Position numbers and translations under genes: made by a program
The notes under the pieces: generated by a model
Told to the model about the DNA's origin: nothing
What the model saw: the letters and a program-made list of their open reading frames with translations, nothing else
Database searches by the model: none
Source: Capsulimonas corticalis
Lineage (GTDB): Bacteria; Armatimonadota; Armatimonadia; Armatimonadales; Capsulimonadaceae
Length of the DNA: 64,000 nucleotides
Direction of reading: 5' to 3'
Assembly: GCF_003574315.2 (NCBI RefSeq)
Contig: NZ_AP025739.1
Coordinates: forward strand, 2,108,001-2,172,000
Shown: positions 1,183 through 54,068 of the stretch, piece by piece
Position numbering within the stretch: position 1 is the stretch's first letter
How the letters are laid out: each line of letters begins with the position of its first letter

Positions 1183-3462
1183 CTATTGCGCCGCCTCCTG
1201 ACGTTTCGGAAAGTCTGGCGGCATCCAGGCAGGCAGGTCACTGAGAGCGGCGCGCGCTTCGGGTGAGGTCGGCACGCCCCACGCCTGGAAGAAGGGAGCG
1301 AGATTTCGGCCTGCCGTCCGCGAGAAACGCGTCATCCACTGATCCCGCTTTTCCAGGTCCGTCTTGGGTCGGGCTGAGGAGGGCAGGGCGCGGTATTCCG
1401 CGAAGACCTTTTTATAAGCGTCCCACCCGAAGGCCTGCCTCAGTTCGATATACATCGTGAGGGCGATCCAGGGATCGTCCTTCCACTGGTTGAAATCGCT
1501 CCCCTCGTTGATATATTTCTGCAGCCGCTTTTGCATGACGTCCGGGTACAGGGCCGGATGCTGCGAGGAAGTGAGTCCGCAAACCGTCTCCATGATGTAC
1601 AGATCAAAGACGTTATTCGTAACTTCCCCGGTCCCGTCAAACGTCCAATCCGGTTCTTGATGGTTATGTCCCATCTCGTGAAAAAATCCCCATGACTTGC
1701 TTTTCCCTTCGCCATTGGTGAGGATCACGTGCGTACTGACGACATCGTTCGCAACATCCAGCCCCATCATGATGGGATAGCCGGAGTGCATATAACCCAG
1801 GCTAATTTGGCGGTCGACACAGTAACGCTCCGGACGCGGCCGATGATGGGGAATTCCCGCGAAGTCGGCGTAGCTATCCAGAATACGATCCCAGAGGGTC
1901 ATCAACGCTTGTGGGTCATCCAGAACGCGAACAGCCGCCGACGGAACGGTCAAGATCACATTGTCGCCCTGCAATTCCGCCCAGGGCGCAGGGTTATTGC
2001 GGATCGTGGCTCGCCATGCGGAAAGATCGGTCTTGCCTTTGACAAAGTATGGCGCTTCGATGGCGTGACCAATCGTGACAGTGACGCTGCCCAAGGCGCA
2101 GTTGTCGGGAACGACAATGTAGATCGCTCCGCCGAAGGCGTTCGCCGCGATGGTTTGAGCGGCGTCCAGAGGAAAAACGCGTGTGATTGCTGGAGCGCGC
2201 TCCCATTTATTCAGCGCCCACAAGGTATCCGTGTGCGCGCCAATACGGACCTGGAGGCCCTTCTGTACGGCGCTCGTTGGCGTGGTCACGGTGATCTGTT
2301 CGCCAGGAGCCGCGTACAAGCCGGTGCTATGCCACTCCGGGATGCTGGCGTCAATCGTGACGGCCTGGGTCACACGAGACGCGTTAGGCGGCGCCAGGCC
2401 GGGAAATGAGGCGGAGGCGGGGAGGATGTGGACCTGCGCGGCGGGCGCCTGCATCGCCTGCTGGACCTGGAGAGACAGAACGACGCGCTCGATCAGGTCG
2501 CGATCCATAAGCGGCGTTTCCAAACGGAGCGCAGGGTCATTTCCGTGCTGGGCTACCAGAGATTTCAGACGCGGCAGCAGGATTTTGTCATCTGGCGGCA
2601 GTGTGTTGACCGCCGTCAGCACCGTTTCCACGGCCTGCTTTGAGTCCGGAAGGACTGCCTTAGCGAGAGAAAGACCATTGGAATCCGATGAGGAACCCGA
2701 ATTGAGCACGAAGGTCAGAGCGTCAGACGCGTTGAGCATCGCGTCAGGAATCATTCCGGCCAGATAGCCTTGCGGCGCCGTGGTATTCAGTGTCCCATCG
2801 GCCCAGAGCAGACCGGCTGACGCCAGGAGGCGGTTGCCGCCATGCTGAGTCAGGGCCTTACCTGGGTTGGTCTGGAGCCAGCCCCATCCCAATTCCGCCG
2901 CGAGCACCCCGCCGCCCCGCCGCAGGTAGTGATCCAGGGCGTTAATTTCTTTTGGCGCGAGATCCGACAGCGGGCATGAAACGACGGAATCGTCCTTCAG
3001 ACGGTCGGTCCACTGCGCGCCGTCGAGTGTATCCACGGCGACGCCGTGCGTCCTTAAGTAGGCCGCAAGGTCGGGCCGCCGCCGGATACCGACTTGCACT
3101 GGCTGACCTGTGCGAGAGAGCCAGTGGACTGCATTCAGCACGAGCGTCCCGGTGTCCGCCGCGCTCAGGGCATCGGCCTCCAGATAGCCTGGGTGCCCGA
3201 ACACCACGACCCGCCCCGCCTTCAGACGAGAAGCGGCCACGACCGGCGCCGCCAAGCGATCGCCGATTTGCCCTGTGATCAGTGGAAATGCATCCTTCCC
3301 AAACACAGCAACAGGCCCCGGCAGCCCCGGCGCTGCGATTGTATGAACGCCGGTGAGCAGAACTATCTGATCGGCTTGATGGACTCCGTCCGCATAACAT
3401 ATGCCGCGCATCAAACAAAATGCCGCTGCAAGAGAGACGAGTAAGTGAAATTTCCTGATCAA
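1183..3462 (-). CDS. Secreted M60 (enhancin-like) metallopeptidase
   Basis: A protein of about 759 residues. The TTG at 3462 is preferred because GGGGAGG ends 6 bp before it; the longer reading from 3477 would overlap that site. The N-terminus (IRKFHLLVSLAAAFCLMRG) is a signal peptide. The first 250 residues look like a glutamine-amidotransferase-like or DUF4350-like fold (VVVFGHPGY, HYLRRGGGVL). The C-terminal half carries the gluzincin zinc site HEMGHNHQ near residue 595, followed by GEVTNN with the third ligand Glu. This is the M60 signature HExxH-x(8-28)-E. M60 enzymes attack mucin-type glycoproteins, but the natural target in a soil or plant-surface bacterium is unknown. The upstream region is AT-rich. 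Confidence 0.8.
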   Translation of the reverse strand: MIRKFHLLVSLAAAFCLMRGICYADGVHQADQIVLLTGVHTIAAPGLPGPVAVFGKDAFPLITGQIGDRLAAPVVAASRLKAGRVVVFGHPGYLEADALSAADTGTLVLNAVHWLSRTGQPVQVGIRRRPDLAAYLRTHGVAVDTLDGAQWTDRLKDDSVVSCPLSDLAPKEINALDHYLRRGGGVLAAELGWGWLQTNPGKALTQHGGNRLLASAGLLWADGTLNTTAPQGYLAGMIPDAMLNASDALTFVLNSGSSSDSNGLSLAKAVLPDSKQAVETVLTAVNTLPPDDKILLPRLKSLVAQHGNDPALRLETPLMDRDLIERVVLSLQVQQAMQAPAAQVHILPASASFPGLAPPNASRVTQAVTIDASIPEWHSTGLYAAPGEQITVTTPTSAVQKGLQVRIGAHTDTLWALNKWERAPAITRVFPLDAAQTIAANAFGGAIYIVVPDNCALGSVTVTIGHAIEAPYFVKGKTDLSAWRATIRNNPAPWAELQGDNVILTVPSAAVRVLDDPQALMTLWDRILDSYADFAGIPHHRPRPERYCVDRQISLGYMHSGYPIMMGLDVANDVVSTHVILTNGEGKSKSWGFFHEMGHNHQEPDWTFDGTGEVTNNVFDLYIMETVCGLTSSQHPALYPDVMQKRLQKYINEGSDFNQWKDDPWIALTMYIELRQAFGWDAYKKVFAEYRALPSSARPKTDLEKRDQWMTRFSRTAGRNLAPFFQAWGVPTSPEARAALSDLPAWMPPDFPKRQEAAQ

Positions 3463-3681
3463 AAACAGCCTCCCCAAAACCGCTCTATCGTGTCAGTGAA
3501 ATCATGGCGTTACGATTCGCATGGCATGATGTTATTATATGCTGGGAAGTTCAAATAGAGATCAATAAATATTTAATTTTATATAAAATTGCAAAGGGCA
3601 ACGAATAAAGCGACAAACACGTATTCTGATAAAGCGCAATTGATTTGCCGTATCGTGTTATCTCGGAGATTTACAATTTCT

Positions 3682-4017
3682 ATGCTGAAGCGTGTCGCCA
3701 ATAACATCGCCAATACCTTGCTCGGCGCCGCCGCAATCATTCCCATTTATTTCACTCTGCATTATCTGCTGTTCGATCGCCTGAAGCCGAACCCTAACTA
3801 TCCTAAAATGCAGGACGACCTTGGTCTCGTCTGTATATCTTTCCACACGCTTCTATTTCTCGTCTTTCTCCGTGTTGTTGTCGCGCGCAGTCTCTTCGTT
3901 GATCGTTTTGGCGGCGTTCGAGGCCATAATCTATGGTGCGGCGTCGCCATTGGGTTATTCGTCGGCTGGCTATTGGTCTTCATGCTGGGTACGGGCACTG
4001 ACGGTTTTCTCGACTAG
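3682..4017 (+). CDS. Small integral membrane protein (111 aa)
   Basis: The protein is unrecognised. Three hydrophobic segments are visible: TLLGAAAIIPIYFTLHYLLF (about residues 14-33), a second around LGLVCISFHTLLFLVFLRVVV, and a C-terminal one around GVAIGLFVGWLLVFMLG. The ATG at 3682 has CGGAG about 12 bp upstream. The reading frame is open further upstream to 3589, but that extension is hydrophilic and has no start with a ribosome site. It sits 58 bp before the next gene, which has its own promoter. Confidence 0.6.
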   Translation: MLKRVANNIANTLLGAAAIIPIYFTLHYLLFDRLKPNPNYPKMQDDLGLVCISFHTLLFLVFLRVVVARSLFVDRFGGVRGHNLWCGVAIGLFVGWLLVFMLGTGTDGFLD

Positions 4018-4060
4018 CGCTACTGACGCTGCTGGTTTTGCATTGCCCGACCGTACAATC

Positions 4061-4069
4061 TGCTATAAT
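4061..4069 (+). promoter_or_regulatory. Extended -10 promoter adjacent to a start codon
   Basis: TGCTATAAT is a perfect -10 (4064-4069) with a TGn extension. It ends only 6 bp before the ATG at 4076, so the expected transcript start falls on or next to the start codon. A possible -35 is TTGCCC at 4043 with a 15-bp spacer. Confidence 0.6.
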
Positions 4070-4075
4070 CCTCTC

Positions 4076-4507
4076 ATGTTCGTCACCATTATGAAAGCCT
4101 ATGGCTTTGTCAACAATCGCCACACCATTGCGCGGGTCAACAAACCCGATTGGGAAGATATCGAAGTCGCGATCCGGCGTATGGAAGGCAAGTTTTACAC
4201 CAGCGTTAATATCTCGAAGACGGCGGAGACGGAGAAGGATGAGATCTTTACGCTGACGATCGGCGGCGGTCGAAAAGACCAGTATACTGTTTCGGTGAAC
4301 TTCGAATCGAAGCACATCATCCATAATCTCGTGAACCCGATGCGCAGCATGCTGGAGGTGGTCGAAGTGCCGATCGGCGTGGAAGCGTTCCAGGTGCCGC
4401 TGCGCGAGATTGTGACGCTGGACGAAGCGCTCCAGGCGGCGCGCACGTATGCGGAGATCGGCGTGCTGGATTCGGCGCTGGTCTGGGATAAGACGCTGGT
4501 GATGTGA
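4076..4507 (+). CDS. Hypothetical protein, probably leaderless mRNA (143 aa)
   Basis: An unrecognised soluble alpha/beta protein. It starts MFVTIMKAYGFVNNRH and contains KFYTSVNISK, a glycine turn TIGGGRKDQYTVSV, and a C-terminal helical part (TLDEALQAARTYAEIG). No signal peptide or membrane segment is seen. There is no ribosome site before the ATG at 4076, and the -10 box lies 6 bp upstream, so translation of a leaderless message is likely. A second in-frame ATG at 4091 is the alternative start. Confidence 0.65.
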   Translation: MFVTIMKAYGFVNNRHTIARVNKPDWEDIEVAIRRMEGKFYTSVNISKTAETEKDEIFTLTIGGGRKDQYTVSVNFESKHIIHNLVNPMRSMLEVVEVPIGVEAFQVPLREIVTLDEALQAARTYAEIGVLDSALVWDKTLVM

Positions 4508-4584
4508 GGCTGTTGTCTCGGGAATGTGTCAGATGAGAGAAGTGCGCCGCGACAGATCATTACGATCTGCCGCGGCGTTTGTGT

Positions 4585-5271
4585 TTAGCGGGCGGCTGCT
4601 CGCAGCGAGCGGCGGCGCAGTCTCATGGTCAGCGCCAGACACCCGCCCAGAACGGCGAGCGCCAGGTTCGGAGACAATTCCGGAACTGGCGGAGGCGTCG
4701 TTTCATTGACGTCTGGGAATGCGGCTGGAGAGGCGGTCAGTGAGTAACGTGCAAAATCATCGTTGTTATAGTCGGTCTTTGTCAGATCGATCGTGGTGAT
4801 GACGAAGCCGGTATACGGATCGTTGGACGGCAGCGGCGCCCCGGCGGAGTCCAGAATGGCGAACGTGAAGGAGTCCGGATCGGGCGACCCGATCTTTGTT
4901 CGGCTCAGGTCCACGGTAAAGTCGAATTCACTGCCGGGCGTGAAATCCTGAGTGAATTCATTGACGAACCCGGTGTCTTTGAGCGCTACCGATCCGTTCG
5001 AATGCAGGAACGCGCCGCCGGTGAAGCTCTGCGCGCCCAGCACGCCGCCGTTCCCGGCGGACAACTGGGTGAGCGTAACCGTGCTTCCGGCCGATCCCGT
5101 CAAGCCGAAGTACGCGGTATAGTGATCGCCGGCCGCCAGCGCGGGCAGGCCGGTCGTATCCAGAGTCGTTTTATAGAGCGTCGCCGCGTGCGCCGTGACG
5201 CCGCCGAGGAAGAACGACGCTCCGGCCAGTAATATCATGCCGCTCTGGATGCGGCGTTTTGTCGAGATCAT
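4585..5271 (-). CDS. PEP-CTERM-like secreted protein (NF038129-like)
   Basis: 228 residues. A signal peptide (SGMILLAGASFFLGGVTAHA) is followed by a beta-rich body containing FDFTVDLSRTK and SFTFAILDSAG, as in small PEP-CTERM proteins. The C-terminus has the sorting-signal layout: PPPVPELSPN, a hydrophobic helix (LALAVLGGCLALTM) and the basic tail RLRRRSLRAAAR. PEP-CTERM proteins are processed by exosortase; no exosortase gene lies in the window. The motif reads PELSP rather than canonical PEP. It follows the HAF-repeat gene by 15 bp in the same direction, so the two are probably one transcript. Confidence 0.75.
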   Translation of the reverse strand: MISTKRRIQSGMILLAGASFFLGGVTAHAATLYKTTLDTTGLPALAAGDHYTAYFGLTGSAGSTVTLTQLSAGNGGVLGAQSFTGGAFLHSNGSVALKDTGFVNEFTQDFTPGSEFDFTVDLSRTKIGSPDPDSFTFAILDSAGAPLPSNDPYTGFVITTIDLTKTDYNNDDFARYSLTASPAAFPDVNETTPPPVPELSPNLALAVLGGCLALTMRLRRRSLRAAAR

Positions 5272-5286
5272 ATTCGAAGCCTTTCG

Positions 5287-7581
5287 TTATCGTGCGCCGG
5301 GACCGGCGAGGACGCGCGGGGTGTAGCTAATCGCGGCGAGCGTGGGATCGTTGAATTGCAGGGTAATGGAAATTTCCTGTCTTGGATACAGCAGGTTTAT
5401 GTCTTGATCGACATAAGGGGAGCCTGCCGGGGTGATGATCTCGGTAATGCCTGTGTCATTGGACAGAGTGGCGTTGTGTAACTTGTCCAGAACCAAACTG
5501 ATCGGCCCCCGAAATGCGTCTGCGCCGTTGTTGATCAGCCGCACCTGCTGTGTGAAAGTGGTAGAGCTGGGAGTTCGGATATAACCGCCTCGGATAATTG
5601 TATATTTGCTCGTAACATCTTGCGCGGCGGGCAGGATATTGATATAGATCACGCCTGGTGTTGCCCCGCCGTGTCCATCGCTGACAACGATTGTGAAGCT
5701 ATCTTGTAACGGAAATGGGATGCTGGCATTTGGCTGGTAGGAAAATGCGCCGTTCGATTTGAGCGTGAGCGTTCCAGTGGATGGCGGGACACTCAGCGAC
5801 ACCGTAAGCGGATCGCCATTTGCGTCACTTGCGAGCGACAGCAATCCAGGCGCTGCTTGCGAAAGCACTCGGCCCTGATAAGCGGTGAGTGTACATGGAG
5901 CGACGGTTGGAGGGACATTGACGAAGTTAATGGTCAGGGATACCGTCGCGACGTTCGAATATACGTTGCCGTCAAACGCCTTATACTGGAAACTATCAGA
6001 GCCGTAATAGTTTGGGTTCGGTACGTAGGTTAATTTTCCGGAGAGAGTCAGCAGTTGTCCATGAACTGGATTTTTCGTGATCGTATAGCTCAGCGCGTTC
6101 CCATCGACATCCGAGGCGTTCGGCGTGATCACGGCCAGCGTGTTCTCATTCAGTGTTTGCTGGCTATCGAATGCGACCGGTGGGTCGTTGACCGGAATTA
6201 CAGTGATATAGACTGTCGCCGGAGCGCTGTAAGAAACGCCGTCGAAGATCTGGAAATCGAACTTGTCCGTGCCGTTGAAGTTCGGCGCGGGAGTGTATAT
6301 GAACGAGCCGTTCGGGTTCAGCACGACGGAGCCATGGGCGACGGTGCTTTGGGGCGTGATTGCCAGAGATGGCTGAGCCGGAGTGTACAGCACGGCTGTC
6401 AGGTTGCTGATGTCCGAGTTTCCATCTCCGCCTCCACTTAACAATGGGCCTTTCGGGACAGAAAGCGCAGTATCCTCATACGTACTGTAAGAATGTGACC
6501 CGTTTCTAGGTACCCTATGCGGCGTGAGTACGATGAACCCATTGTTGTTTCGGTACAGCACTGGATCCCATTCAGCGCCTGTTCCAAGAATTACTCCCGA
6601 ATCATTGATTCGGTACAAGGTGCTTGCATACGCCATTGGATGCCCGACAGCAGTATATTGGATTTTTGTGGGCAAGCCGTCCAGTACAAAATTACCAATC
6701 GTGTCGGCGCTTCCGATAATTTCACCTTGGTTGTTGATGTCCGCTGCGTAGGAATTACTGCTGGATGATATTCCTAGCGTGGAGTTCAAATCCTGGATTG
6801 TTCCCGAGACAGTTGCCAGGAACGCGTGCGAGCTGGCGTTTCCCGTGGTTTCCGCGTTGCCGACTACCTGACCGCTATTGTTAATTGACGCTGCACGCGC
6901 ATAGTATCCGCCTAGGCCGCCTAGGTCGGTCGCTACTCCGGTATTGGGATTCCAGAGAAATGCATGTGAAACAGGGAAATTCCAGCCATTCACGAGCGCG
7001 GTCGCTCCCGTGTTCCAATAGCCGCAGACAAAGCCGGTATTGCTGATCCTCAAAGCGTCGCTGTCGCTGCTGGTCGTGAGCTGCTGGCCAATGTCCAAGG
7101 CTCCGGCCGCGGGATCCCAGCGCGCAGCGCGGAGATGCCCCGCGACGGTAATGTGGCCGGCGATCTGACTGCTAGTCGTCAGGATTTTCCCTGGGCTATA
7201 TGCAAATCCGCTGAGATTCAACCACTGGATTCCCCCGAGCGTGTCTCGAAAGAAATCTCCGAGCGGCGAGCTGGTTCCCAGTGTTTGCCCTTGCTCATTA
7301 AGCGCCAGCAGATTATTGTTGGCGGTTCCCTGCGGCGCAACATCGTGGAATCCTGTCTGAGCGTCCCATACAAAACCGTGATAAGTGTCTATGCCGGCAA
7401 TTCTGGCGTAATAATAATTGCCGCTGACTTGCCCCTGGTTGTTAAATCCCGTAAGGGTTAAGGCGGCGTTTCCCGGAGCGGCGACAAAATTTCGGATATA
7501 CTCCTGTGCGCAGGCCGGATGGATGCTGGAAGCCGCCATTCCTAGCGCTGCAATTCCGTACGCGATAACGCGTTTTTTCAT
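5287..7581 (-). CDS. Secreted HAF-repeat and cadherin/Ig-like tandem-domain protein
   Basis: 764 residues with a signal peptide ending ACAQ. Residues about 30-350 hold repeats of the HAF extracellular type (GFVWDAQTGFHD, AFLWNPNTGVATDLGGLGG, SINNSGQVVGNA). Residues about 400-670 hold three tandem cadherin-like/VCBS Ig-like domains (NFNGTDKFDFQIFDG, NYYGSDSFQYKAFDG, NDPPVAFDSQ). The C-terminal 90 residues form another beta domain. AAAGGA precedes the ATG with a 10-bp gap. It is likely an exported adhesion or matrix protein and the first gene of the unit with the PEP-CTERM gene. No catalytic motif is seen. Confidence 0.8.
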   Translation of the reverse strand: MKKRVIAYGIAALGMAASSIHPACAQEYIRNFVAAPGNAALTLTGFNNQGQVSGNYYYARIAGIDTYHGFVWDAQTGFHDVAPQGTANNNLLALNEQGQTLGTSSPLGDFFRDTLGGIQWLNLSGFAYSPGKILTTSSQIAGHITVAGHLRAARWDPAAGALDIGQQLTTSSDSDALRISNTGFVCGYWNTGATALVNGWNFPVSHAFLWNPNTGVATDLGGLGGYYARAASINNSGQVVGNAETTGNASSHAFLATVSGTIQDLNSTLGISSSSNSYAADINNQGEIIGSADTIGNFVLDGLPTKIQYTAVGHPMAYASTLYRINDSGVILGTGAEWDPVLYRNNNGFIVLTPHRVPRNGSHSYSTYEDTALSVPKGPLLSGGGDGNSDISNLTAVLYTPAQPSLAITPQSTVAHGSVVLNPNGSFIYTPAPNFNGTDKFDFQIFDGVSYSAPATVYITVIPVNDPPVAFDSQQTLNENTLAVITPNASDVDGNALSYTITKNPVHGQLLTLSGKLTYVPNPNYYGSDSFQYKAFDGNVYSNVATVSLTINFVNVPPTVAPCTLTAYQGRVLSQAAPGLLSLASDANGDPLTVSLSVPPSTGTLTLKSNGAFSYQPNASIPFPLQDSFTIVVSDGHGGATPGVIYINILPAAQDVTSKYTIIRGGYIRTPSSTTFTQQVRLINNGADAFRGPISLVLDKLHNATLSNDTGITEIITPAGSPYVDQDINLLYPRQEISITLQFNDPTLAAISYTPRVLAGPGAR

Positions 7582-43453: not shown

Positions 43454-44134
43454 ATGAGGCGTATCGGCGGATTTACCTTGATCGAGCTGCTTGTCGTCAT
43501 CGCGGTTATCTCGATTATCGCCGCGCTCTTGTTTCCCGTCTTCGCCAAAGTGCGGGAAAAGGCGCGCCAGACCACCTGCGCCTCGAACCAGCGGCAGATC
43601 GCGCTGGCGACGCTGCAATACCTTCAGGACAACGACGATATCCTGCCTGGCGCTTCTGACGGAGCCGCCGGCGTGAATGTCACGGGCGGATGGATGTTCT
43701 ACACCTCCTTCGCCATCACGCCCGGCGCGGTTTCCCAGATGGACCCCACGCGCGGCAGCCTCTACCCCTACATCCACAGCGCCGACGTGTTTCTTTGTCC
43801 CAGCGACTCGATCCGTAAAAGCCCGGGCAACTCTTATGCGATCAACTCCTGTGTTGAGGATCCGGTCGTCGTGAATGGGTTCCGGCCCGGCCGGGCGCTG
43901 GCGGTGTTTGACGCGCCTTCGTCGCTGATGCTCTTCAGCGAGGAGACCACGGTGACCGCGAGCACGACGAACGACGCGTTTATGAACCTGAGCTTCGCCG
44001 ACGCCTTTGCGGGACGCCATCAGGGAGGCTGCTGCATCACGTTTTTGGACGGGCACGTCCACTGGCTCCCGATTTCCACGGTTCATACACGCGGCGTCCA
44101 GACCGGCGTTCCGGGAGATCTGGCCTGCCCATGA
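43454..44134 (+). CDS. Prepilin-like protein with H-x9-DG motif
   Basis: 226 residues, the shortest of the four prepilins here. The leader ([17 protein letters not shown]) and [20 protein letters not shown] are followed by a head with [19 protein letters not shown] (H-x9-DG). GAGGGGG lies before ATG 43454; the longer frame from 43427 has no leader logic. Its stop overlaps the start of the GH16-GT2 gene by 4 bp (ATGA), so the two are translationally coupled. A role in positioning or exporting the glucan made by that enzyme is possible but is inference. Confidence 0.87.
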
Positions 44135-46710
44135 AGACGCTCCGCGCGTTCTTAATCGTCTTGATCTTGACCTTGCTGTCGGCGTCGTTTTCGACGCGGG
44201 CCCAGGCGCGCCATCGCGCCCAGAAGTCTTCGGCGCCGCGCTGGGTGATGACCTTCGACGATGAGTTCAGCGCCCCTTCCCTGGACACGTCGAAATGGAC
44301 GACCAGCCGCGGCCCAATGAATATCCACGAGCAGCCTGTTCAGAGCTTCCGGCCCGAGGACGTCCGGCTGGAGAAGGGCGCCCTGTCGATTCTCAGCGAG
44401 CGCCGCGAGGCCGATGGCTGTGAGTTTACGTCCGGCGAGATCAGCACGCTCAACAAATTCGCCCAGCGTTATGGACGCATCGTTTTCCGGTGCCGGTTCT
44501 CCGCGCTTCCGGGAATCTGGTCGGCGATCTATTTGCTGCCGGCCTCGGGCGATTGGCCGCCGGAAATCGACCTCACCGAGTACCGGGGATCCGTCCCGGA
44601 CACCATCTGCATCACCAACCATTGGCGCGACGAAAACGGCCACCAGATGGAGCACATGGATTATGTGAATCCGGCGGTGGACTGGACCCAGTGGCACACC
44701 TACGAAGTCGTCTGGGAGCCGGGATTTGTCCGGTGGTCAATCGACGGTCATGTCCGGGCGAAGTCCGTGCAGGGAGTCTCCTCGGTTCCCATGTATCTGC
44801 GCATCAACACCGCGATCGGCGGCGTCTTCGCCGGCGAGCCTGCGGAAAACGGCTGGCCGAAGACGTTCGACATCGACTATATTCACGTCTATCGCCGCTC
44901 GGATCAGCCCGCGCCGATCCTTGGCGTCACATATGTTCCGCCGGCGCCGGCGCCAAATTTGAACGGCGCGGCGGCCGGCGTCTCCGGCGGGGGCGACGCG
45001 CCGGCGTGGAGCTTCGGGGACGCCGTGCTGGTCGCGGCGTTACTGGCGCTATGGAGCGCGGCGGCGTTCGCGCGAACGGACCGGCGACGGATGACAATGG
45101 CGCTCGGCGTCCTCGTCGGCGCCTCGGCCCCGTGGTATCTTCTGTGGCGAATCTCTTTCATCAATGGGAGCTTCTGGTGGATCGCGCTGCCCCTGTTCGC
45201 CGCCGAGCTGTTCGGTGCGGCGCAGATCCTCGGGTTCCATTACACGATCTGGCCGCGTCCCGAGCCGGCGGCCGCGCCGGGCGACGCGCGCCCGCGCCCG
45301 ATCTTCATTCTGATCCCGACGGTCGATGAAGGGCGCGGGGTCGTGGAGCCCACGGCGCTGGGCGCGCTGGCGGCGCGCGAGGCTTACCAAAAGGCGCACC
45401 CACAAGCCGAGGTCACCATCGCGCTCTGCAACGACGGCTATGTTGCGGGCAGTCCCGATTGGCGCGACATGGAGCATCTTGCCGACGAACTGGGGATCCT
45501 CTGCGTGACCCGGCGGGAAGGCGGCGGCGCCAAGGCGGGGAACCTCGAATACGCGCGCCAGTTCCTCGGGGCGACCGGGGAGGCGCTGATCGTCATTTTC
45601 GACGCCGACATGGCCGCGCGCCCCGAATTTCTTCTTCGCACGATACCGCCCTTCGGGGATTCCCGGATCGGCTGGGTGCAGACGGGGCAGTACTATCGAA
45701 ACCTCGAAAGCCCGGTGGCGCGCTGGGCGCAGGACCAGCAGATGGTCTTTTTTGAGACGATCTGTCCGGGCAAATCCCGCCTCAACTCCGCGTTCATCTG
45801 CGGCACCAACGTGGTGATCCGCGCGTCGGCGCTGGATGAGATCGGTGGGCTGCCGCAGGAGTCGCTGACCGAGGACTTCGCCGCCTCAATCCTGCTGCAC
45901 GCCCGCTGGCGCTCGGTCTATCTCCCCGAGATCCTGGCGGAGGGACTGGGGCCGGAAGATCTGTCTTCCTATTTCAGCCAGCAGCGGCGCTGGGCGGCGG
46001 GAACGCTGGGCGTCCTGCGGCGCGAATGGCGGCGCATCGTCCTTCCCGCGAGCGACGGTTTGACTGGCCCGCAGCGCGCGCAATACGCGCTGAGCGGCAC
46101 GCACTATCTCTGCGGACTGAGCCAGCTGATCTTTTTCGCTGCTCCGCTGCTTTACCTTCTGGCCGGCGTCCAGGCAATGAACTCCGTCAGCCTGCTGGAG
46201 TTTTTGCGGCATTTCGCTCCCTACTGGGCGGTGACGCAGATCGCGCACTGGTATGCCTGCGGGCGGCGATGGCGCTGGCGGGGAGCGATCCTGGGCTTCG
46301 CCGCCGCCCCGGTGCTCGCCGCCGCATTCGTCTCCGTGCTGCTGCGTCGCCCGGGCCGGTTTGTCGTCACCGCAAAGGCGCGCCGGTCGGGCCGCGCCGG
46401 GCGCAGCCTGAGGCCGCACTTCTGGGGTCTCGCGGTGAGCGTGCTCGCCCTCATCGTCGCCGCCGGCGACCCCGAACGCAGCGCCCTGGGCGCCGTCAGC
46501 GTCTTCTGGACGCTTTACAGCGCCGCTGTGCTCTGCTGCATCATCTGGCTCGCCGTGGAGGCCCGCGCGCAGGCGTCGGAAAGCGCCAAAGCCACGCGCG
46601 CGCTTCTGGAGCGCCCCGCGCTGCCCGCCGACTGGAGCCTCGGCGAATACGTCTACCGCCGCCGCCAGGCGCGTGAGGATGAGCGCTCCGACGAAACCCT
46701 GCGCCCTTGA
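44131..46710 (+). CDS. GH16 glucanase - GT2 polysaccharide synthase fusion
   Basis: 859 residues. A signal peptide or signal anchor (1-28) leads into a GH16 domain (about 38-265) with the catalytic motif EIDLTEY near 147 and [16 protein letters not shown] before it. After a Pro/Ala linker come two membrane helices (about 290-350). A GT2 synthase domain follows (about 390-640) with [10 protein letters not shown], the metal motif FDADMA near 490, SLTEDFA and QQRRW near 617. The C-terminal 180 residues hold several membrane helices. The fused enzyme could make a beta-glucan inside and trim or transglycosylate it outside. It is coupled to the prepilin gene by a 4-bp overlap. Confidence 0.85.
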
Positions 46711-46757: not shown

Positions 46758-46814
46758 TTGACACATGTAATCTACCATGGTAAACTGTTCTTGCAATCTA
46801 CCACGGTAGATTAC
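46758..46814 (+). promoter_or_regulatory. BlaI-type promoter with two operators
   Basis: TTGACA (46758-46763) and TAAACT (46781-46786) are 17 bp apart. One palindrome-like operator (AATCTACCATGGTAAACT, 46769-46786) covers the spacer and the -10. A second, perfect one (AATCTACC and GGTAGATT, 46795-46812) lies just downstream of the transcript start. The layout matches autorepression by BlaI/MecI-family proteins. Confidence 0.78.
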
Positions 46815-46842
46815 AAGGGATGGGGTACGGAGGCAGAGTTTT

Positions 46843-47232
46843 ATGCAGAAATCTGGACCGCGTTTAGGGAAAATGGAGCTGAGGATCATGCAGGAGCTGT
46901 GGAGCCAGCCGGAGCTGACCGCGCGTCAGATGACCGCGCGGCTGTCTCGGCTTGCTCCGACCGCGCACAGCACCGTGCAGACGATGCTGCGCAAGATGGA
47001 GGCGAAGGGGCTGGTTACGCACGAAGACCGCGAGGGGACGTTTGTCTTCACCGCGCTTTATCGGCAGTCGGAAGTCAGCGGGGCGCTGGCGACCGATATT
47101 TTGGACCGGGTATTTCACGGCTCCATCTCCAGCCTCGTGTCGCATCTGCTTTCGGAGGGGCGCACGTCGCCGGATGAGCTGCGGCGTCTGCGCGCGCTCG
47201 TCGACGCGCTGCCGGAAGAGGAGCGGTCTTAA
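46843..47232 (+). CDS. BlaI/MecI/CopY-family repressor
   Basis: 129 residues with the penicillinase-repressor winged helix: GPRLGKMELRIMQELWSQPE, TAHSTVQTMLRKMEAKGLVT and a dimerisation tail. It is expected to bind the two palindromes upstream. The cleavable region between the two domains of BlaI is present in length. The next gene, starting 1 bp downstream, encodes an M56 membrane peptidase of the BlaR1 type that normally inactivates such a repressor. The signal that triggers the pair is unknown; no beta-lactamase gene is near. Confidence 0.92.
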   Translation: MQKSGPRLGKMELRIMQELWSQPELTARQMTARLSRLAPTAHSTVQTMLRKMEAKGLVTHEDREGTFVFTALYRQSEVSGALATDILDRVFHGSISSLVSHLLSEGRTSPDELRRLRALVDALPEEERS

Positions 47233-49665
47233 ATGGAGCGCTTCGAGCTGTGCCGGCATTTCCTGGAACTGGGGATCGGAGTCCTGATCCAAAGCACCTG
47301 TTTGATCGTTCTGGGGCTTATCGCGGGGCGGCTGCTGCGCCGGCGCGGCCCGTTTTTCGAGCTGGCGGCGTACCGGGCCACGCTGGCCTGTGTGGTTGTC
47401 AGCGCGCTGATGGCGGCGTCGATGGCCGGCCGCGTTCAGCCGCTTTGGAGCGTCTCGATCGCCGCGCCGCCGCCTGCTGCGGTGATGTCAACGGCGCTCC
47501 CCAATATTGCCAAAGCATCACCTCGGATTCGGCGGCGCTCCCATGTTGGCGTCGCCGCGCCGGTTTCGCCTCTCGCTGAAATAGGCGCGCCGTCTTCTCC
47601 ATCCAAACTGCCTGGGCTTTACGCTGCTCTCACCGCTGTCTGGCTGTTGGGCGTGGCCGTTCATCTTCTGTGGCTTTTCGTCTGCGGGATCACGCTGCGC
47701 CGGTTTATGGCGCGGGGGGAGCGCGTGACATCTGGGCCGGTCGCGCTGCTGCTCGCGGAAATCGCCGAGCGGACAGGAGCGCAAACGCCGAATCTTATTC
47801 TTCATCCCGACGTGCGCAGCCCGTTTCTGGCGGGCGCGCTGCGTCCGACGGTTGTCATGCCGGACGACGCCGTGGAGCGTTACGGAGAGGCGGGGGCGCG
47901 CGCCGTGCTGGCGCATGAACTTTCCCATTTTCTTCAGCGCGACTGCGCCTGGAACCTCGGATTTCGTCTGGCGGCCGCGCTGCTCTGGCCGCAGGCGCTC
48001 CTGCTGGCGCTGCACCGCCGCTGGCAGGAAGCAGCGGAGTATGCTTGCGACCAGTGGGTGCTGGCGCACGCCTGCCCGCCGCGCTCCTACGCCGACTGTC
48101 TGCTGAGTATCGCGGAAAACCGGTCCGTATCCCGGTCGCAGCGCGTGCTGGCCATCGGCGTCACCCCGTTCCGATCCATGATTGGTAAACGCCTCGCCCG
48201 TATCGTCGATTGGAGCGGCGGTCAGCTGCGAATGCTGTCCCGCGCCGGACGGATCATGGTCGGCGGCGTCGCCTTCGTCGCCGCCGGAGGCGTGCTCTTT
48301 CTCGTATCCGCCAACGCTGGCGCGCGGCCGGCCGCCAAAACCGCGCATCGTTTGATTGCATCCGCACATATCGTCCGCACGGAAAAACCACTGTCTGGAG
48401 GACCTGTCATGCTCAAGAAACATACGGCGATGTCTGCGCTGATCGCCCTGGCGAGCGGCGCCGTACATGTCAGTCTGCCGGCTGCCGCCGCGCCGATTCC
48501 AGCCAAGCCGGCGGCGCCCATAAAGCTGATCTCCGCAAGCGTCGCGCCGACAATCGCCGCCATTCCGCACTCCAGTCCGGCTGTCACAAGACCGGCAAGC
48601 ACGATTCCAGCGCGGAACGCCGTTACTGCGACTCCAGAGGTTGCGCTCGTACAGCCGGCTCCGGCAAATCCCGATGCCGCCGCCACGTCGTCATCGCCGA
48701 GCGCCGTCAGTCTCAATTTCACCGATGCGCCCGTGAAAGATGTGCTCAAGCAGCTGTTCACGCAGACAGGGTTGAACTATGTGATTGGTCCCGAGGTGAC
48801 GGGGACAATCACTGTGCGTCTTTCCAGTGTGTCGCCGGAAGACGCGTTGCGGACAATCTTGAAAACCAGCAGGCCAGCTTTGAGTTATGAGCTCGCGAGC
48901 GGCATTTACCATATTCGCCTTAAAGACTCGGAAGCGTCCATGGCCCAGCTGCAGACTGTGGAAGAAGCGGTCGCCCAGCAGCAGCGCCGACACTATAAAC
49001 TGCCAATCGATTATTGTGACGCTTCGGAACTTCTCAAGTCGCTCGTCAGCGCTGAGGCTAACGGACAGGGAGTCGCGCCGGCGTATTATGCGCGCGTGTC
49101 CGCGGCGCCTAACGAGAACGCGTTGCTGGCCGATACGACGCCCATGGAATATGAGAAACTGCGCGACGCCGTGCGCATTCTCGATGTCGAGCCGAGCCGC
49201 TGTCAGGTGCATGTGCAGATCGTGGAGGCGTCCCGTGATGCGCTTGCTCGTCTGGGAATCGATCCCCAGACGCTGACAAACGCGAAAGAAGATTCGCCGG
49301 ATCTTAAAGGTCAGGCGCTGCTGGACGCGGTCCAGCATGGAAAGCTGCCGACACTGGCGTCTCCCACGGTCGTCACGGTGAGCGGCGTCAGCGCCGTCGT
49401 GACGGTGAAAAGGGCCGCCTCGTCGATTGCCATGACGGCGACGCCTTCCGTGCGCCCGAACAATGACATCCATCTCACGCTGAGCCTGGAAATTACCAAC
49501 GGCGATCAGTCGCAGTCGCTGAAGCTGTCCAATCTGCTCTTTGACAGCGCGCCCACGTTCTGCGGGACCATTCCCGACCCTGCTCACCCAGATCGCTCCC
49601 TGCTGGTGTTCGCCACGGCGGCAAGCGTTCTCACGAAACGCTCCGGAATTCTGGGAACGCCATAA
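47233..49665 (+). CDS. BlaR1-like M56 peptidase continuing into a secretin-like domain
   Basis: 810 residues. The first 390 form a BlaR1/MecR1-type M56 membrane metallopeptidase: several membrane helices, the zinc motif AHELSHFLQRD near 231-241 and EAAEYACDQWVL as the third-ligand region. Instead of the penicillin-binding sensor domain of BlaR1, the frame continues through a second signal-like stretch (MLKKHTAMSALIALASGAVH, from 393), a Pro/Ala linker, an STN/secretin N0 domain (about 490-560, LNFTDAPVKDVLKQLF), an N1-like part (YKLPIDYCDASELLKSLV) and a short secretin-type C-terminus. An internal start (48409) has a strong GGAGG site, so two products are likely. Confidence 0.82.
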   Translation: MERFELCRHFLELGIGVLIQSTCLIVLGLIAGRLLRRRGPFFELAAYRATLACVVVSALMAASMAGRVQPLWSVSIAAPPPAAVMSTALPNIAKASPRIRRRSHVGVAAPVSPLAEIGAPSSPSKLPGLYAALTAVWLLGVAVHLLWLFVCGITLRRFMARGERVTSGPVALLLAEIAERTGAQTPNLILHPDVRSPFLAGALRPTVVMPDDAVERYGEAGARAVLAHELSHFLQRDCAWNLGFRLAAALLWPQALLLALHRRWQEAAEYACDQWVLAHACPPRSYADCLLSIAENRSVSRSQRVLAIGVTPFRSMIGKRLARIVDWSGGQLRMLSRAGRIMVGGVAFVAAGGVLFLVSANAGARPAAKTAHRLIASAHIVRTEKPLSGGPVMLKKHTAMSALIALASGAVHVSLPAAAAPIPAKPAAPIKLISASVAPTIAAIPHSSPAVTRPASTIPARNAVTATPEVALVQPAPANPDAAATSSSPSAVSLNFTDAPVKDVLKQLFTQTGLNYVIGPEVTGTITVRLSSVSPEDALRTILKTSRPALSYELASGIYHIRLKDSEASMAQLQTVEEAVAQQQRRHYKLPIDYCDASELLKSLVSAEANGQGVAPAYYARVSAAPNENALLADTTPMEYEKLRDAVRILDVEPSRCQVHVQIVEASRDALARLGIDPQTLTNAKEDSPDLKGQALLDAVQHGKLPTLASPTVVTVSGVSAVVTVKRAASSIAMTATPSVRPNNDIHLTLSLEITNGDQSQSLKLSNLLFDSAPTFCGTIPDPAHPDRSLLVFATAASVLTKRSGILGTP
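48397..48411 (+). promoter_or_regulatory. Strong internal ribosome site and ATG within the M56-secretin ORF
   Basis: GGAGG (48397-48401) lies 7 bp before an in-frame ATG (48409). The codons that follow encode a typical signal peptide (MLKKHTAMSALIALASGAVH) ending in Ala-rich AAAAP. Separate synthesis of an exported 418-residue secretin-like protein is expected from this site. Confidence 0.65.
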
Positions 49666-49689
49666 CGGCGCCCAGTCTGGTTCCGTTCG

Positions 49690-49715
49690 GGGCGGCATGA
49701 ATAATCATGCCGCCC
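49690..49715 (+). terminator. Intrinsic terminator of the BlaI-M56 operon
   Basis: An 11-bp stem (GGGCGGCATGA with its complement, loop ATAA) is followed by TGTTTT. It lies 25 bp after the stop. Confidence 0.8.
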
Positions 49716-49779
49716 TGTTTTGGGATTCTCAGGAACCAAATTTCATTTGCCACTATTGTGATAGTAATTAGTCGTTCCG

Positions 49780-50621: not shown

Positions 50622-51182
50622 ATGTCCATCGAAAATCGACTGCTTCACCGGCCCGGCGGCGCGCTGGCGTTTTATCCCAGCCCCGTCGGCCAGATCGCCA
50701 TTCTGGCCCTGGCCGTTCTGATGGTCGGCGTCACTCCCGGCATGCTCTTCCCGCACGGCCGCCCGACAACCGATCCCGTGGACACCCTGCTCGCTCTATT
50801 CGGTATCTTCGGCGGCCTTTATCTGGCGGGCCTCTCCGGCCCACAGCGTCTCACGATCCAAACCCAAGATCGCACGTATCGTTACTCCGACTACCGAAAA
50901 CTCCCACTGACCCGGTTCGCGAACGCCGTTTCGCCCCCACGCATCCCCTTTCTCCTCGACCGGCGCGAAGGCGCCCTCGACGCCGACGCCCAGGGCGTCG
51001 CCCTCCGAACGCTCAAAGGCAACAAGCCCGGCGCCGTCTACTGCTGGATCTTATTGATTTGGAAAGACGAATCACGCCTTCCCGTCCTCCTGGCCTTCAC
51101 CCGAAAGTCCGAAGACGCCCAAACGCTCCTGTCCGAGACCACCGAGCTCCTCAATCTCCCCATCGTCGAAAAGCAGTTCTGA
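50622..51182 (+). CDS. Membrane protein of unknown function
   Basis: 186 residues. Two membrane helices near the N-terminus (VGQIAILALAVLMVGVTPGM and TLLALFGIFGGLYLAGLSG) are followed by a cytoplasmic or periplasmic domain of about 110 residues with a basic beta-rich start (RLTIQTQDRTYRYSDYRKLP) and a helical C-terminus. The family is not recognised. It lies 6 bp after the TauE/SafE gene and is probably in the same operon. Confidence 0.6.
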   Translation: MSIENRLLHRPGGALAFYPSPVGQIAILALAVLMVGVTPGMLFPHGRPTTDPVDTLLALFGIFGGLYLAGLSGPQRLTIQTQDRTYRYSDYRKLPLTRFANAVSPPRIPFLLDRREGALDADAQGVALRTLKGNKPGAVYCWILLIWKDESRLPVLLAFTRKSEDAQTLLSETTELLNLPIVEKQF

Positions 51183-52592: not shown

Positions 52593-54068
52593 ATGTTAGG
52601 ATCCGGGTGGGCCGAAAACGAAATTCAGGGGACAAAGTTTGGCGATGAGCGCTTCCGCCGTGTCATGGGGGAGACACTGGAAGCAAAGTTTTCTCAACCC
52701 AACGTCAGCTTTTCCACGATGTGCGGCAATGCTTTGAGACAATCGGCGGGACGTCTATTACGCCACCCAGAAACCAATGCGACGGATCTCCTGGAGGGAC
52801 ACCGGCAAGCAACTCTGCAGCGATGCCTGGGAGAGAAAACCATTGTCGTAGCCCAGGACACCAGTTCCTACAATTATTCCACCCACTACGCCACCGAAGG
52901 GCTGGGGCCGATCAATGACTCGAAAAAGGCGATGGGCATTCATCAGCATTCCGCGCTGGCGATGACACCCGACAGACTTCCGCTGGGAGTGGTGGAGGCT
53001 CACTTTTGGGCGCGCCCCCTGGAGAAGCAAGCGGCGGCGCAGCGACGCAAAAAGCCCATTGAGGAGAAGGAAAGCCATCGCTGGCTGCGAACGGCGAAAC
53101 ATGTGGAGCAGCTCTTTGAACCCCACCTTCGCCAAGGAGGAGAGGTGGTCGTGGTCGCGGACCGGGAAGCGGATATCTTCGACCTGCTAGCACAAGAGCG
53201 TGCTTCGGGACTGGAACTGATTATCCGCGCCGCTCACCCCCGCACTGTTAAAGTGATGGATGGGGAGGTGATGGATGGGGAGGTGATGGATGGGGAGGTG
53301 ATGGATGGGGAGGTGGTGGACCGTTCGGAGGGCGCCACGAAAGAACCGGCCTATTGTTCTCTTCTGGTAGCGGCTCAGCAGGGAAACGTCCTGGGCCACT
53401 ATACGCTTCGTGTTCCTGGACGGACCCAGGCTCAAGATCGTGACGCCACGATGGAGATGCGCCATTGCCGTGTGGAGGTTCAGCCGCCCAAAGCCGGTGT
53501 GGGACATGAGGAGAAAGCCGTTCCGATCCAAGTGGTAAGCGCTCGGGAGATCGTCCCTGAGGGAGATCCCCATGCCCCTTTGGAATGGATCATGATCACC
53601 ACTGTGAATGTGATCGATATGGCGTCGGCGCGGCGTGTCCTGGATCTTTATACGTGTCGTTGGGAGATTGAGCGATTTCATTTTACGCTCAAATCGGGCT
53701 GCCAAGCCGAGCGTCTTCAGATGGACGATCTAGATACTCTTTGCAATACGCTCTCGCTTTACCTGGTGGTTGCCTGGCGATTGTTATATGTGACGCATTT
53801 GGCGCGTGTGATGCCCGAAATCCGCGCCGACCAGATTATGGATACAACAGAGCTTGCCATTCTCAATCAGCAGAGCCGTACTCCGATCACGACAATTTCG
53901 CAGGTGGTGACGGCCATCGCGCAGCTTGGGGGCTTTGAGCCCTACAAAGGCGGCCCGCTACCTGGGGTAAAAGTGCTCTGGAATGGGCTCAGAAAGCTCG
54001 ACTCCATGGCGGCTGGATGGAGGCTCGCCATGGAGTCGATCAGAACCCAAAATGTGATACAAGCTTAG
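52593..54068 (+). CDS. IS4-family transposase
   Basis: 491 residues resembling Tn5/IS50 transposase. The N-terminal DNA-binding part WAENEIQGTKFGDERFRRVM is followed by catalytic Asp in VVAQDTSSYNY, Asp in VVVADREADIFDLL, and Glu in WEIERFHFTLKSGCQAERLQ. All three acidic residues are present, so it is probably active. GGAGGAAC lies just before the ATG. An unusual insert of four MDGEV-type units at about 220-240 comes from a 15-bp DNA repeat. The frame ends in the right terminal repeat. Confidence 0.93.
   Translation: MLGSGWAENEIQGTKFGDERFRRVMGETLEAKFSQPNVSFSTMCGNALRQSAGRLLRHPETNATDLLEGHRQATLQRCLGEKTIVVAQDTSSYNYSTHYATEGLGPINDSKKAMGIHQHSALAMTPDRLPLGVVEAHFWARPLEKQAAAQRRKKPIEEKESHRWLRTAKHVEQLFEPHLRQGGEVVVVADREADIFDLLAQERASGLELIIRAAHPRTVKVMDGEVMDGEVMDGEVMDGEVVDRSEGATKEPAYCSLLVAAQQGNVLGHYTLRVPGRTQAQDRDATMEMRHCRVEVQPPKAGVGHEEKAVPIQVVSAREIVPEGDPHAPLEWIMITTVNVIDMASARRVLDLYTCRWEIERFHFTLKSGCQAERLQMDDLDTLCNTLSLYLVVAWRLLYVTHLARVMPEIRADQIMDTTELAILNQQSRTPITTISQVVTAIAQLGGFEPYKGGPLPGVKVLWNGLRKLDSMAAGWRLAMESIRTQNVIQA
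53253..53312 (+). repeat. 15-bp tandem repeat (4 copies) inside the IS4 transposase
   Basis: GTGATGGATGGGGAG is repeated four times without change and keeps the reading frame, adding VMDGE units. It lies between the second catalytic Asp and the Glu of the transposase, where Tn5-like enzymes have a variable insertion domain. Confidence 0.9.

Follow-up and report, generated by a model that had tools for sequence, protein, structure and literature searches.

The closest described counterparts of the operon reported here are the BlaR1/MecR1 receptors and BlaI/MecI repressors of staphylococci and Bacillus licheniformis. In these systems BlaI acts as a repressor, a sensor event activates the M56 peptidase, and BlaI is cleaved (PMC7593790, PMC9834060). 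Almost all that is known of BlaR1-type signalling comes from beta-lactam resistance. A second point of comparison is provided by secretins such as PilQ and GspD. All structurally characterised secretins possess an amphipathic helical loop, which is thought to start outer membrane contact or insertion (PMC6532946).

The present operon shares with BlaR1/MecR1 systems a BlaI-type repressor gene adjoining an M56 receptor gene, four predicted transmembrane helices, the HEXXH...EXXXD motifs with conserved D, Y and R residues, operator dyads at the promoter, and an ectodomain predicted to lie outside the cytoplasm. However, the ectodomain is secretin-derived (N0-N1) instead of being a penicillin-binding or class-D-like sensor, the operon contains no beta-lactamase or other target gene, and the receptor gene has a candidate internal start. 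In our judgement, the product is probably a BlaR1-type receptor, acting within a BlaI-controlled loop, in which a secretin-derived N0-N1 protein from a type IV pilus system has taken the place of the original ectodomain. BlaR1-type modules with a secretin-derived sensor were found in three phyla, and the literature searched, which covers the field in part, contains no description of an M56-secretin fusion. The locus could be used to test whether a BlaI system can report on envelope machinery instead of an antibiotic, and whether the sensor of such a receptor may also be released as a separate protein.

Operon layout and the M56 half

The window is a stretch of 64,000 nucleotides, positions 2108001-2172000 of a single-contig 7.65-Mb genome (G000). 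The features of the operon lie on its forward strand, apart from the operator dyads, which carry no strand. The receptor gene (47233-49665; 810 aa, ATG to TAA) joins an M56 receptor to a secretin-like ectodomain. A stop codon between the two parts was looked for and none was found in 47233-49665, such that both halves occupy one open frame. The frame starts exactly where the gene of a 129-aa repressor ends (46843-47232; ribosome-binding site GGAGG at 46829-46833). This repressor matches Penicillinase_R (PF03965, E 5e-25) and its stop abuts the M56 ATG, in agreement with the BlaI-type repressor named in the initial annotation. Downstream, a terminator-like hairpin (49688-49717; 77-nt fold of -38 kcal/mol, z -5.0) marks the end of the operon. 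The genome has three such loci, namely this operon, an orphan M56 gene and a second blaI-M56 pair (L018), and no co-directional adjacent output gene was seen at any of them. A plasmid search gave zero matches.

The first half was described as an M56 BlaR1 peptidase, and this description holds. The Peptidase_M56 domain (47287-48141) is found at residues 19-303 with a Pfam E of 4e-26, or 9e-27 when the first 391 residues are searched separately, and both zinc motifs are intact (HELSH at 47914-47928, EYACD at 48037-48051). Residues H228, E229, H232, D237, E269, D273, Y286 and R320 are invariant across nine aligned sequences and match those described for S. aureus BlaR1 (PMC9834060). The M56 domain is normal and probably active. 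The generic BlaR1 model of NCBIfam matches the first half at 8e-16, far below its curated cut-off. Four hydrophobic helices are predicted in this half, the last of which (TM4, residues 338-360; 48244-48312) has a hydropathy peak of 2.29 and an insertion estimate of +0.35 kcal/mol. In the alignment of relatives, homology stops at TM4.

Neither Pfam nor NCBIfam finds a penicillin-binding (transpeptidase or class-D-like) sensor domain, and N0-N1 stands in its place. The protein is therefore an M56 receptor that does not sense beta-lactams in the manner of BlaR1, and the reading as a beta-lactam sensor was rejected.

Domains of the second half

Beyond TM4, a signal-peptide-like segment (discussed below) is followed by an Ala/Pro-rich linker (48493-48684), an N0 (STN) domain (48685-48906), an N1 (Secretin_N) domain (49018-49197) and a shortened secretin-core-like region (49318-49662; LLDAVQHGKLPTLASPTVVTVSG...). 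Pfam STN is matched above its cut-off at residues 491-519 (E 5e-10 with the whole protein, 1.4e-10 with the second half alone), and the N0 assignment is supported by a match to an N0-N1 protein of the type IV pilus in the same genome. The GspD N0 family matches below its cut-off (E 1.5e-5). N1 (residues 596-655, Pfam E 0.001-0.007; local secretin HMM on a single target, 4e-7) is below cut-off, yet PilQ models and matches in the PDB lend it support. Among NCBIfam models, PilQ TIGR02515 fits the second half best (2e-25, far below its curated cut-off), and the best PDB match, which spans N0-N1, is a PilQ-family secretin (3e-11). Secretin homology is thus present by HMM search, as the initial annotation had supposed. 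AlphaFold prediction without an alignment gave a pLDDT of 41-42, too poor for use.

The core is less complete. The Pfam Secretin domain (PF00263) is matched at E 0.002-0.009 with 16-18 bits against a cut-off of 27.5, covering 38-90 of its 169 positions, and a local HMM on a single target gives 9e-5. About 115 residues follow the core start, and at the position where PilQ-like proteins carry LLGDLPFFGKLF the chain terminates with ILGTP. The PilQ-like motif LGdIPxLGxLF, which we take to be the amphipathic helical loop, is absent from the second half. Thus, the protein resembles PilQ and GspD in N0, N1 and the start of the core, but differs from them in its shortened core, its missing loop and its failure to reach the family cut-offs. 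Owing to the partial core and a C-terminus that ends at the position of the loop, the second half is unlikely to form a pore and would be a secretin-derived periplasmic domain instead of a full secretin. Of the signal peptide, STN/N0 and secretin-like segments originally proposed, a signal-like segment, STN/N0 and N1 are therefore retained, and a full secretin is not. The suggestion that the gene couples a repressor to the state of an outer membrane secretin finds no support in a second half with an incomplete core that stops where the loop is expected.

Among everything searched, the second half is closest to an N0-N1 protein of 248 aa from the same genome (L045 3246-3992; 36% identity, E 4e-22). 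Its gene belongs to a type IV pilus cluster, in which a PilQ-like secretin gene follows directly downstream; the cluster is named from PilQ and gene order, its two upstream genes having no Pfam match. The 248-aa protein has a signal peptide, linker, N0 and N1 in the same order as the second half of the window protein. It differs in standing alone, without an M56 domain, and in carrying a Gly/Ser-rich tail in place of the core remnant. STN proteins of 220-290 aa that resemble it were found across the phylum.

Promoter, operators and the proposed circuit

Upstream of blaI lies a sigma-70-type promoter (46758-46786; TTGACA-17 nt-TAAACT, 10/12 consensus, with TG before the -10). Two sequence dyads form putative BlaI operators: box 1 (TCTACC-AT-GGTAAA, 46771-46784) overlaps the -10, and box 2 (TCTACC-AC-GGTAGA, 46797-46810) lies 26 bp from it. 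The same -35/-10 form occurs upstream of the orphan M56 gene, the L018 blaI and blaI in three further genomes (G006, G014 and G017), and operator boxes are conserved upstream of the blaI genes of relatives. In the same-genus genome G001, a promoter variant is found on contig C441 and a single box on contig C335, whose BlaI is 76% identical to that of the window. A stray operator-like site with no blaI beside it was observed in G013.

The pattern TYTACCNNGGTARA occurs at exactly six sites in the 7.6-Mb genome, two at each of three promoters (the reversed pattern, used as a control, gave three matches per strand). These promoters belong to this operon, to the orphan M56 gene, which lies 120 kb away and has no blaI, and to the L018 blaI-M56 pair, and all three drive M56 receptors; in this genome the operator set thus reaches receptor genes only. 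Because the TCTACC half-site is restricted among them to this operon and the orphan promoter, the window BlaI would be expected to control the orphan receptor as well. Cross-control with the second (L018) BlaI is possible. Since the operator is found only at the three M56 promoters, the BlaI circuit looks like a closed loop without a separate output gene, its predicted targets being the receptor of the operon plus at most two of its sisters, although this prediction reaches only matching boxes and would miss diverged ones.

The orphan receptor gene (L012, G000:C1:2274921-2276050) has two BlaI boxes that reach up to its start codon, and a gene divergent to it encodes a prepilin-type N-terminus (FTLIELLVV). 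Phe is almost invariant at P1' of the BlaI cleavage site (PMC9834060). At the presumed cleavage site, the window BlaI reads SHL where its same-genus orthologue reads SHF.

By analogy with BlaR1, the M56 domain would sit in the inner membrane with its zinc site facing the cytoplasm and N0-N1 and the core in the periplasm. BlaI dimers on the two promoter boxes would keep the operon, and probably the sister receptor 120 kb away, nearly silent. A periplasmic partner that binds or leaves N0-N1, perhaps a pilus or secretin component or peptidoglycan, would activate M56, which would cleave BlaI and so induce the receptors themselves. Because the N0 domains of secretins and TonB transducers have proteins as binding partners, a pilus or secretin component is the first candidate for the ligand. 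N0 could possibly sense a separate secretin. A free periplasmic N0-N1 protein from ATG 48409 may be a second product. Release of an ectodomain has precedent by another route, since in S. aureus the sensor is also shed through the action of signal peptidase (PMC9834060).

Related receptors, the candidate internal start and competing readings

The two sister receptors of the genome (orphan, G000:C1 2274921-2275976; L018, 1381021-1382115, with its own BlaI) resemble the window protein in their M56 halves (37-39% identity) and share its promoter and paired operator boxes, 25-26 bp apart. However, these sisters and G001:C441 have one ectodomain family in common (E 4e-36 to 9e-53) that is missing from the window protein, which points to ectodomain replacement here. 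The best M56 relatives carry other C-terminal parts, and the branching of a tree of M56 halves was not resolved.

Recurrence of the fusion among relatives, raised in the initial annotation, was found at a distance and not nearby. The same fusion is absent from 18 other genomes of the order, which counts against the replaced-ectodomain receptor, and from 60 relatives in a protein search and about 290 phylum genomes searched with the second half; a scan of genome contigs with the whole protein also found nothing. In G001 the contig breaks inside the orthologous blaI, so that the fused frame is readable in one genome only. No other M56 frame in the 19 genomes of the order has a Pfam-level STN. 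A stretch resembling STN (VSINAEGVPLAELLPLVSSKTGVSF), uncalled by Pfam, was noted by eye right after TM4 of an M56 receptor of the same order (L048 2126-4792, G018).

A first M56 alignment was too diverse, and a narrower one gave 80 diverse M56 loci, two of which are further M56-secretin fusions. In Planctomycetota (L151, JAMCWO010000113.1), BlaI is followed by M56, STN and three Secretin matches (1e-47). In Verrucomicrobiota (L137, JANXMD010000676.1), BlaI lies upstream and the Secretin domain is complete (6.5e-19). Both resemble the window gene in having BlaI upstream and M56 followed by secretin-type C-terminal domains in one frame, with Pfam STN/N0 in L151 only, but their cores are complete (repeated in L151) and neither has an internal signal peptide. 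Their neighbours differ from those of the window gene, so the fusions are probably independent, and the M56-secretin pairing has probably arisen more than once as a true fusion. Since both lack an internal signal peptide, the main product is more likely to be the read-through receptor. The L151 protein (2155-7171) is a giant receptor that also contains a carboxypeptidase-regulatory-like domain.

The claim of a GGAGG site 7 bp before an in-frame ATG at 48409 proved accurate (48397-48401), and the start opens a signal-peptide-like segment (48409-48492; MLKKHTAMSALIALASGAVHVSLPAAAA). The matching anti-Shine-Dalgarno sequence GGATCACCTCCTTTC is present at the 16S 3' end in three places in the genome. 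A sample of 551 kb of this genome contained 1160 in-frame internal ATGs; 35 of them had such a Shine-Dalgarno site, 22 were signal-peptide-like and one, 48409, had both. Under independence, 0.66 such coincidences would be expected in the sample and about 6e-4 at any one position; it is therefore the coincidence with the domain border, and not uniqueness, that carries the argument. The hydrophobicity of the segment is weak (an estimated +2.9 kcal/mol, against +0.6 for the type IV pilus paralogue). When internal to the full-length protein it probably forms no membrane helix, and the second half is thus predicted to be periplasmic in both possible products. Retention of the Shine-Dalgarno site, ATG and signal-like segment suggests that the second half was formerly, and perhaps still is, a separate gene, which counts against a purely fused receptor.

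These features bear on a reading that overlaps the favoured one, in which the gene yields both a read-through receptor and a free secreted N0-N1 protein from 48409, the soluble ectodomain being the induced output. We place this somewhat short of an even chance. The strong site and signal-like start fall exactly at the domain border, the anti-Shine-Dalgarno is present, signal peptide, linker and N0 succeed one another in the pilus paralogue as they do here, no other operator-controlled gene was found genome-wide, and BlaZ, by analogy, is a secreted relative of the BlaR1 sensor. A Planctomycetaceae M56 frame (L082 3971-6589, JABURQ010000011.1) has AAGGA followed by a clear signal peptide (MKHPIMTLAVLVGLTAPQNSEA) directly beyond TM4, and is possibly a second M56 gene with an internal secreted product. 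However, this is one case against about 0.2 expected at the same rates, and of 374 ATGs in M56 tails two were signal-peptide-like, one of them with a Shine-Dalgarno site, which is no enrichment above chance. The chance expectation for 48409, its weak h-region and the missing internal start in the other M56-secretin fusions weigh on the same side. An extended version, in which one gene supplies a protease-receptor and, by internal initiation ahead of a signal peptide, the same ectodomain in soluble form, and in which the closed BlaI loop around it targets M56 receptors only, is doubtful; it would amount to a sensor plus secreted decoy or effector tied to type IV pilus or secretin assembly, with L082 as a possible Planctomycete analogue.

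The halves might also be two proteins in effect, an M56 protein without an ectodomain and a separate secreted N0-N1 protein, joined accidentally, either because the M56 stop was recently lost or through an error in sequencing or assembly. In the +1 frame, TM4 is followed by a TGA some 60 nt ahead of 48409, so that one indel would part two genes; M56 homology ends at TM4, and some M56 proteins have hardly any ectodomain. Given that the genome is a single 7.6-Mb contig, that the junction has no long homopolymer and that M56-secretin fusions recur in other phyla, such an accident is rather unlikely. A true outer membrane secretin, tethered to the inner membrane via M56, is very improbable: PilQ and GspD models do match N0-N1 and the core motif LASPTVVTVSG is kept, but the sub-threshold Secretin match, the absent LGdIPxLGxLF motif and the short stretch after the core start led to its rejection. 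The replaced-ectodomain receptor remains the preferred reading.

Other features of the window were noted. An ORF at 44131-46710 combines a GH16 glycosyl hydrolase domain with a membrane GT2 glycosyltransferase, and a Tn5-type transposase at 52593-54068 contains a short in-frame repeat (VMDGEVMDGEVMDGEVMDGEVVD). A 186-aa gene (50622-51182) has a 66% identical homologue adjoining the orthologous blaI on G001 contig C335 in a different order, which indicates local rearrangement around the operon.
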